Below are positions 22,844 through 24,632 of a DNA stretch of 64,000 bases, piece after piece. Source of the stretch: Salinigranum rubrum. Its GTDB lineage: Archaea; Halobacteriota; Halobacteria; Halobacteriales; Haloferacaceae. The notes under the pieces are model-generated. The model was not told the DNA's origin, searched no databases, and saw nothing but the letters and a program-made list of their open reading frames with translations. How positions within the stretch are numbered: position 1 is the stretch's first letter; each line of letters opens with the position of its first letter. Both the position numbers and the translations under genes were made by a program. The stretch spans positions 1,488,001 through 1,552,000 of the forward strand of contig NZ_CP026309.1 in NCBI RefSeq assembly GCF_002906575.1, read 5' to 3'.

Positions 22844-23365
22844 ATGGACGACTCACGGACTGACCCGTCGAGCGCGCGCCTCGTCGACCACTTCGACGGC
22901 GGTGACCACGAGGCGGCAGCGGCGTGTCTCGAACGGACCGAGACCGAAGCCGCGTCGAGCCGGAAACGGACGCTTCAGGCGCTCGGAGCCTCGCGGACGA
23001 CCGTCCGACCGCGTTCGCCTGTGTCGTCTCGGCACTCACGCCGTGTCTCACCGACGGGGAGCGGTCGGTCCGCCTGACGACCGCGAAACTGCTCGTCGCC
23101 GTCGCCGAGGCGGACCCGTTTCGCGCTCGGTGTCGACGCGCGTCGGGACGAACGGGCCGGCGAACCCGGAACCGTCGACGGGGTTCGGGTCACCACCGGC
23201 GACGCCGTCGCGGCGATAACCGCACCGAGCGAGGACCGCGAGTGCCGCCCCTGCGGGCTGGCACTCCCCGAGAGCGGGCCGCCGATGTGCCCGCGCTGCG
23301 GCGCGCCGTACCGACTGGATTTTGGTTGGCCTAAAAACCGAAACAGGTTTGTGTTTTTAGGCTAG
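22844..23365 (+). pseudogene. HEAT-like repeat protein with C-terminal zinc ribbon, two frameshifts
   Basis: Three reading frames must be joined to follow the protein. Frame one starts at ATG 22844 (MDDSRTDPSSARLVDHFDGG) and runs to about 22984. Frame two continues with RSLADDRPTAFACVVSALTP, a helical HEAT-like stretch, to about 23124. Frame three gives an acidic segment and a zinc ribbon (ECRPCGLALPE then MCPRCGAPY), ending at TAG 23363-23365. The first join needs one added base (CTCGG to CTCCGG). The second needs two bases, for example restoring a CG in CGCGCTC. The tail overlaps the iron operators of the next gene. Broken gene or consensus error; haloarchaea carry intact proteins of this build. 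Confidence 0.7.
23320..23335. promoter_or_regulatory. Upstream DtxR/Idr-like operator, diverged copy
   Basis: TTTTGGTTGGCCTAAA agrees at 13 of 16 positions with the perfect palindrome 36 bases downstream and keeps the GCCTAAA half intact. It lies about 40-56 bases before the start of the binding-protein gene, around or just upstream of where BRE/TATA elements are expected. Confidence 0.5.
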
Positions 23366-23371
23366 CCTAAA
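23356..23371. promoter_or_regulatory. Perfect palindromic DtxR/Idr-like iron operator
   Basis: TTTAGGCTAGCCTAAA is a perfect 16-base palindrome ending four bases before ATG 23376. It closely resembles the core of bacterial DtxR boxes (TTAGG-TTAGCCTAA) and the sites of haloarchaeal Idr/SirR metal-dependent repressors. Placed at the probable transcript start of an iron-type ABC binding protein, it should allow iron-loaded repressor to block transcription. Confidence 0.75.
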
Positions 23372-23375
23372 TCGC

Positions 23376-24632
23376 ATGAGTGACGACCCGACACAGCACA
23401 CGGGGCCGACGCGGCGCGAGTACGTGAAGTACGGCGGGGCGGTCGTCGGCGGAGGGTTGCTCGCGGGATGCTCCGGCGACGGCGAGTCGGAAGCGACGCG
23501 GACGACAACCGGAACGGCGACCGAGACCACGACGGCACCGACGACGGACACGCCCGAGGACGACTCCTACACGGTGTCGATGTCGCCCGTCGGCGAGGTG
23601 ACGTTCGAGCGGGTGCCCACGAGCGTCCTGACCTACTACCCCATCTCCGCCGGGACGGCCGTCGCGCTCGGTCACGGCGATTCGATCACCGCCATCGGGT
23701 ACGACAAACAGCTGTTCGGCGACACCGTCGACTACTACTACGACAGCCTCGATTCGGTCTCCTTCGACTGGGAGAAACTGGGTCGCGTCACGCCGAGCGA
23801 CAACCCGAACACGCTCGACGAGGAGGCGTTCTACGAACTCGACAGCGACGTTCACTTCCTCGACCCGGCGCTGCTCCGGAGCGGCGCGTTCGGCTGGAGC
23901 GAGCGGGACGTCGAGCGAATCGCGTCGAACGTCGGGCCGTGGTTCGGTAACTACTACAGCCGCACGAACGCACAGCCACCGGAGCCGTACCGCGACGACT
24001 ACGCCTACTACGACCTCTGGGAGTACATCGGAAAGATCGCCGCCGTCTTCCGAGAGCGAGAGCGCTACCGGGCGTTCGAGTCGATGCACGACGACCTCCT
24101 CGCGCGCATCGCAGCCGACCTGCCACCCGAGTCCGAGCGGCCGACGGTCGCCATCGTCGCCTACAGCAACGGAACGTTCTGGCCGTACGACTTCACCCAC
24201 GACGGCTACCTCTGGGCCCACGTCCGCCCGATGGGTGTGAGAAACGCGTTCGAGACCGTCGAGGGCGGGCCGAGCGCCGACGGCTCCTACGACTTCGAGG
24301 GGCTGGTCGAAGCCCAGCCGGACGTGATGCTCCGGTACTGGGGCACCGCGCTCGGCCGGACGTTCGTCGACGGCCGCGAGTCCGTCCTCGACCACTCGCT
24401 CGCCAGCGAGGTTCCGGCCCTCCGCGACGAGCGGTACTACCCGTCGGGCCACGGCATGCAGGGGCCGATCATGAACCTGTTCAATCTGGAGATGACCGCC
24501 AAGCAACTGTACCCCGACCGGTTCGGCGAGTGGCCGGGCTACGGCGACGGAAACGCGTATCCGGACGTCCCCGCTGACGAGCGACTGTTCGACCGCGAGC
24601 GAGTCACGAACATCGTCGCGGGGGAGTTCTGA
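23376..24632 (+). CDS. Iron/siderophore-type ABC transporter substrate-binding lipoprotein
   Basis: 418 residues. The twin-arginine signal TRREYVKYGG (12-21) leads to a lipobox with Cys32 (LLAGC), so it is exported folded and anchored by lipid. A Thr-rich linker precedes a FecB/BtuF-type bilobed domain: VTFERVPTSVLTYYPISAGT and ITAIGYD in the first lobe, a long linking helix (WEYIGKIAAVFRERERYRAF, about 212-231), and a second lobe with PDVMLRYW. The two operator palindromes just upstream support iron-repressed expression. Permease and ATPase genes are not adjacent, so they must be elsewhere. Confidence 0.88.
   Translation: MSDDPTQHTGPTRREYVKYGGAVVGGGLLAGCSGDGESEATRTTTGTATETTTAPTTDTPEDDSYTVSMSPVGEVTFERVPTSVLTYYPISAGTAVALGHGDSITAIGYDKQLFGDTVDYYYDSLDSVSFDWEKLGRVTPSDNPNTLDEEAFYELDSDVHFLDPALLRSGAFGWSERDVERIASNVGPWFGNYYSRTNAQPPEPYRDDYAYYDLWEYIGKIAAVFRERERYRAFESMHDDLLARIAADLPPESERPTVAIVAYSNGTFWPYDFTHDGYLWAHVRPMGVRNAFETVEGGPSADGSYDFEGLVEAQPDVMLRYWGTALGRTFVDGRESVLDHSLASEVPALRDERYYPSGHGMQGPIMNLFNLEMTAKQLYPDRFGEWPGYGDGNAYPDVPADERLFDRERVTNIVAGEF

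Follow-up and report, generated by a model that had tools for sequence, protein, structure and literature searches.

In the window, the 64-kb stretch of DNA analysed here, a lipoprotein gene is preceded by two copies of a palindromic sequence, raising the questions of which kind of regulator they may serve and what holds them at a set distance from each other. The elements concerned are:

23320..23335, no strand assigned: op1, predicted distal operator, TTTTGGTTGGCCTAAA, identical to op2 at 13 of 16 positions
23321-23334: 14-bp core of op1, TTTGGTTGGCCTAA
23339..23343, plus strand: BRE-like CGAAA, putative BRE at positions 5-9 of the spacer between the operators
23348..23353, plus strand: TATA-like TTTGTG, putatively assigned by alignment, 28 bp before the ATG
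23356..23371, no strand assigned: op2, predicted proximal operator, perfect palindrome TTTAGGCTAGCCTAAA, between the TATA and the start codon
23357-23370: 14-bp core of op2, TTAGGCTAGCCTAA
23376..24632, plus strand: Tat-signal lipoprotein, 418 aa, PF01497 ferric-siderophore/B12 binding-protein family

The op2 16-mer is its own reverse complement and the ATG of the lipoprotein gene, at 23376, lies four bases downstream, bearing out the original prediction of a perfect palindrome in this position; the 13/16 copy described 36 bases upstream is likewise found as op1. Measured from start to start, the two are 36 bp apart, which at 10.5 bp per turn gives 3.4 helical turns, so that the earlier figure of about three and a half is correct as arithmetic. 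With up to three mismatches allowed, op1 and op2 are the sole matches to TTTAGGCTAGCCTAAA in the window, and no match of this type occurred in 100 dinucleotide shuffles of it.

Alignment of 16 oriented 36-bp pairs of the class gave the consensus TTAGGCNNGCCTAA - AAAT - CGAAR - N4 - TTT(TATA) - TTTAGGCNNGCCTAA, in which the C of the CGAA element (spacer position 5) is present in 14 of the 16 pairs and the G (position 6) in all of them. Op2 occupies the stretch from TATA to start and op1 abuts the BRE, which supports the earlier proposal that the sites overlie the core promoter and the start region. With the TATA-to-start distance at its usual archaeal value, a TATA-like element 28 bp before the ATG leads one to expect a leaderless transcript, and the lipoprotein mRNA is probably of this kind. 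As read from sequence, the layout is that of a leaderless promoter with a predicted operator on either side.

The 418-aa protein carries a twin-arginine motif, TRREYVK (TRREYVKYGG), and the lipobox LAGC. It scored 30.1 bits against PF01497 (Peripla_BP_2), above the curated cut-off of 27.5, and had no match above cut-off in NCBIfam; close homologs are found in Haloferax, Halarchaeum, Haloarcula and other Halobacteria. When 18 lipoproteins encoded behind operator pairs were aligned, RR and AGC were invariant, and the profile of these proteins matched solved Fe3+-hydroxamate, ferric-siderophore and iron-uptake binding proteins. Together with the PF01497 match, this supports the original designation of the product as an iron-type binding lipoprotein; its substrate may be a ferric siderophore rather than B12 or haem. 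No permease or ATPase gene lies beside the gene, and its next downstream neighbour encodes a Na+/H+ exchanger.

Upstream of the operators lies a further feature:

22846..23308, plus strand: remnant of a HEAT-repeat/zinc-ribbon gene, with an intact paralog at G000:C1:756355-757422

A tblastn search of the window with the intact 757-kb paralog returned three pieces in two frames, with about 200 residues absent, and we read the upstream gene as a HEAT/zinc-ribbon remnant that has been disrupted by frameshifts and an extensive deletion. The earlier placing of op1 within the 3' end of this gene is partly right: the gene is broken and its frame crosses op1 and enters op2, where it meets a TAG, but the alignable part stops at about 23308. 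In the intact paralog a TGA stop precedes the distal operator closely. The 757-kb locus has its HEAT/zinc-ribbon gene, operator pair and lipoprotein gene in the order seen in the window, which points to a probable duplication of the entire unit.

Over the promoter, the window thus has a palindromic element of the TTAGG-N4-CCTAA type found in haloarchaeal DtxR-family iron regulons. The original prediction had suggested scanning the genome for such sites near iron genes, and the scan returned 16 exact TTAGGN4CCTAA sites in the 4.97 Mb of this haloarchaeal genome, compared with three for a reversed-pattern control, with iron-uptake, Fe-S and DtxR-family genes downstream. When one mismatch was allowed, pairs 36-37 bp apart were found at seven promoters; single-site promoters are also present. 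The pairs and the genes beside the sites are:

56342/56379, 71435/71471, 515164/515200 and 517732/517768: predicted operator pairs, 36-37 bp
523898/523934, 757427/757463 and 1511321/1511357: predicted operator pairs, 36-37 bp, the last being the window pair
515, 517, 523 and 757 kb, and the window: PF01497 lipoproteins starting directly beside the sites
515-524 kb: FecCD permease and ABC ATPase within the lipoprotein cluster
G000:C1:56398-58881 (L028:6399-8882): DUF5059-plastocyanin lipoprotein, 827 aa, starting 5 bp after a pair 37 bp apart
71 kb: sites flanked by a NifU-like gene and, in the opposite direction, by a short ORF followed by a DtxR-family gene
2228 kb: SBP/permease/ATPase ABC importer beside a site
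4012 kb: aminotransferase class V, SufS type, beside a site
C3: multicopper-oxidase lipoprotein beside a one-mismatch site
2689058: site with no clear target
2229762: site with an unrelated-looking target, a reversibly glycosylated polypeptide-type protein

Judged by their annotation, these genes are mostly an iron-homeostasis set, apart from those at a few sites, 2689058 and 2229762 among them, whose target is unclear or looks unrelated, and the enrichment of sites before iron-uptake and Fe-S genes is that of an iron regulon. The operator at the SufS-type ORF links Fe-S assembly to the same predicted regulon, and the pair before the DUF5059-plastocyanin lipoprotein brings DUF5059, a domain of unknown function, into it. 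At the SufS-type ORF (G000:C1:4011904-4013194, L038), the operator 14-mer shares its final base with the first ATG listed. The 71-kb region (71304-72139 of G000:C1, L029) holds three operators between the NifU-like and the accessory DtxR-family genes, and the pair is immediately followed by a 41-aa ORF (MRHAETPGRYRTGF...), which precedes the regulator gene.

Beyond this genome, the motif was present in all 97 sampled genomes of Halobacteria, with 1150 sites compared with 118 for the control, and an exact pair within 24-54 bp was found in 189 of 292 genomes of the class, the reversed control giving 0 everywhere. Among the 75 pairs listed, which are the first part of the output rather than a random sample and come in part from related, non-independent genomes, 66 fell within 34-37 bp, 41 of them at exactly 36 bp. 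Long intact ORFs starting a few bases past the second site nearly always encode a lipoprotein with a Tat signal, roughly 400 aa long, whose ATG lies 4-6 bp after the second 14-mer, and all 18 lipoproteins that were taken from directly behind pairs and aligned (13 from other genomes, five from this one) belong to Peripla_BP_2, PF01497. Three pairs 27-29 bp apart (G229:C1:2278482, G131:C3:71361 and G288:C1:894081) have a TCGA-containing spacer without BRE/TATA and are perhaps a separate minor class.

The recurrence of the 14-mer before iron-uptake and Fe-S genes, both genome-wide and class-wide, supports the DtxR-type identity proposed for the operators, as do five strong DtxR-family genes among the seven over cut-off that the genome encodes as possible regulators. 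The iron-repressor reading of both predicted sites is thereby strongly supported. Candidate iron regulators named for Haloferax volcanii are Idr, SirR and TroR (PMC11349517). In the genomes sampled here, a 144-aa Idr-like protein is, like the motif, present in 97 of 97, leaving no variance for a co-occurrence test, and identification of the cognate regulator by this route was abandoned. An accessory DtxR-family paralog of about 141-156 aa occurs in 31 of the 97 genomes, its gene lying behind an operator pair in the present one. At 25 of the 30 loci read, an operator carrying no more than one mismatch was found within 1 kb of the paralog gene. Genomes with the paralog have on average 17.4 sites, compared with 9.3 in those without (Mann-Whitney p 4.5e-8, kinship ignored), which suggests a link between this paralog and the operator sites.

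Very probably, then, op1 and op2 serve as operators for a metal-dependent haloarchaeal repressor of the DtxR family that would bracket the BRE/TATA and be released under iron limitation. Candidates for this repressor are the universal Idr-like protein, encoded here at G000:C1:1021445-1021876, and the accessory paralog, encoded at G000:C1:71714-72136. With iron plentiful, the metal-loaded repressor would sit on both sites, one dimer on each, on either side of the BRE/TATA; the dimer on the proximal site would keep RNA polymerase from loading, an effect reported for Archaeoglobus MDR1, while that on the distal site, next to the BRE, would hinder TFB/TBP. Under iron limitation the dimers would leave, permitting synthesis of a leaderless mRNA for the siderophore-binding lipoprotein. 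The sites, their spacing and place in the promoter, their association with iron genes in this genome and across the class, and the protein family are seen directly; which repressor binds, which metal loads it, that it represses rather than activates, where transcription starts and that the substrate is a siderophore are elements of this scheme that we infer.

The site resembles known haloarchaeal iron regulons (Idr/SirR/TroR; ferR), in which the signal likewise precedes fhuD-type binding-protein genes; the presence of DtxR-family regulators in the genome and the class of organisms are shared as well. Haloferax fhu genes carry the ferR regulon signal according to Leyn and Rodionov 2015, as cited in PMC11349517, and under iron starvation five of 11 fhuD paralogs of Haloferax rose more than four-fold (PMC11349517); in a Haloferax proteome study the iron response of siderophore genes was not uniform. 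The window pair is accordingly a predicted member of a known iron regulon, one that the literature already predicts, and as a site it is nothing unusual. The fixed layout with an operator on each flank of the promoter may not have been described before: the literature covered does not mention it, and the primary regulon papers could. In bacteria, the 19-bp IdeR operator TTAGGTTAGSCTAACCTAA takes one dimer on repeats 1 and 3 and a second on repeats 2 and 4; repeats 1 and 3 read TTAGGN4SCTAA, which is the haloarchaeal 14-mer and the single-dimer half (PMC8464063). Unlike this operator, the haloarchaeal sites have no second, interleaved dimer site; they are two separate sites of single-dimer size, 36 bp apart. 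Among 264 flanking 5-mers at 132 distinct haloarchaeal sites, one matched an extra CCTAA repeat at four of five positions and none at all five, and an overlapping two-dimer operator of the bacterial 19-bp type was rejected on this ground. From the sequence we expect one dimer per haloarchaeal site. The metal-dependent repressor MDR1 of Archaeoglobus fulgidus blocks recruitment of RNA polymerase (PMC2995911), and the proximal site of the window sits where such a block would occur; unlike MDR1, the window, known here from its sequence, has a second site upstream of the BRE.

What the second site does, and what sets its distance, can be explained in several ways. An origin of the palindrome by chance, or a structural role with no regulator behind it, is scarcely credible in view of the shuffle and reversed-pattern controls, the class-wide conservation and the association with genes. 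The original prediction took the spacing as a sign of cooperative repression; two dimers would then bind jointly and might loop or bend the promoter DNA. The narrowly kept distance between two sites would fit, but 3.4 turns place the dimers on nearly opposite faces of the DNA, and the class has a single spacing peak at 34-37 bp: in the 75 listed pairs no clear second peak appears a helical turn away, with no peak at 46-47 and only three pairs at 26-27. Since the BRE and TATA fill the interval and account for the spacing without contact, and no clear peak lies one turn shorter or longer, it is probably the basal promoter between the sites, not dimer contact, that sets their distance. Helical-phase cooperativity was therefore dropped as the default reading; it finds no support here and we regard it as unlikely.

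The proximal site might also repress alone, the distal one being neutral or a decaying relic of a duplicated promoter unit. Orthologs from Haloferax and Haloarcula, 65-70% identical, have a perfect proximal site at the corresponding position. Most of them lack the distal site, and one has a degenerate version of it at 34 bp; with the proximal site alone in most Haloferax orthologs, the distal site appears dispensable there. The window distal site is itself imperfect, and single-site promoters exist in the genome. Against a relic, 189 of 292 genomes retain pairs, whose spacing peaks sharply, and seven promoters of the present genome do so as well; we consider this account doubtful though still a serious one. 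Comparison of the orthologous promoters indicates that the proximal site is the core element and that the distal site is gained and lost. Activation from the distal site, through TFB recruitment in some metal state, with repression from the proximal site, is decidedly improbable. The distal site does abut the BRE, where archaeal TFB-recruiting activators act, and DtxR-family iron regulators of Halobacterium are reportedly described in positive feedback loops, going by the title of one cited paper, so that the distal site could activate; yet the sequence is the same at both sites and metal-loaded DtxR proteins mostly repress.

Repression through operators on both sides of the promoter is thus the reading that we retain. 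More tentatively, the pair may represent a class-wide cassette, op1-CGAAR-TATA-op2-4-6 bp-ATG, with a preferred 36-bp pitch, in which leaderless genes for siderophore-binding proteins would be tightly shut off only when both sites are filled. The part that deserves attention is this fixed two-site layout, recurring before iron-uptake genes across the class. If the proposal is true, a pair of single-dimer sites bracketing the basal promoter replaces the interleaved two-dimer operator of bacteria. The layout as observed supplies a search rule for iron-regulated leaderless genes of Halobacteria (two 14-mers 34-37 bp apart, BRE and TATA between them, start 4-6 bp further on), connects an orphan lipoprotein gene with the predicted iron regulon and extends the predicted iron response to unexplained genes such as the one for the DUF5059-plastocyanin lipoprotein. 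The pair also offers a clean system for finding out which step an archaeal repressor prevents, that of TBP/TFB, that of RNA polymerase, or both.
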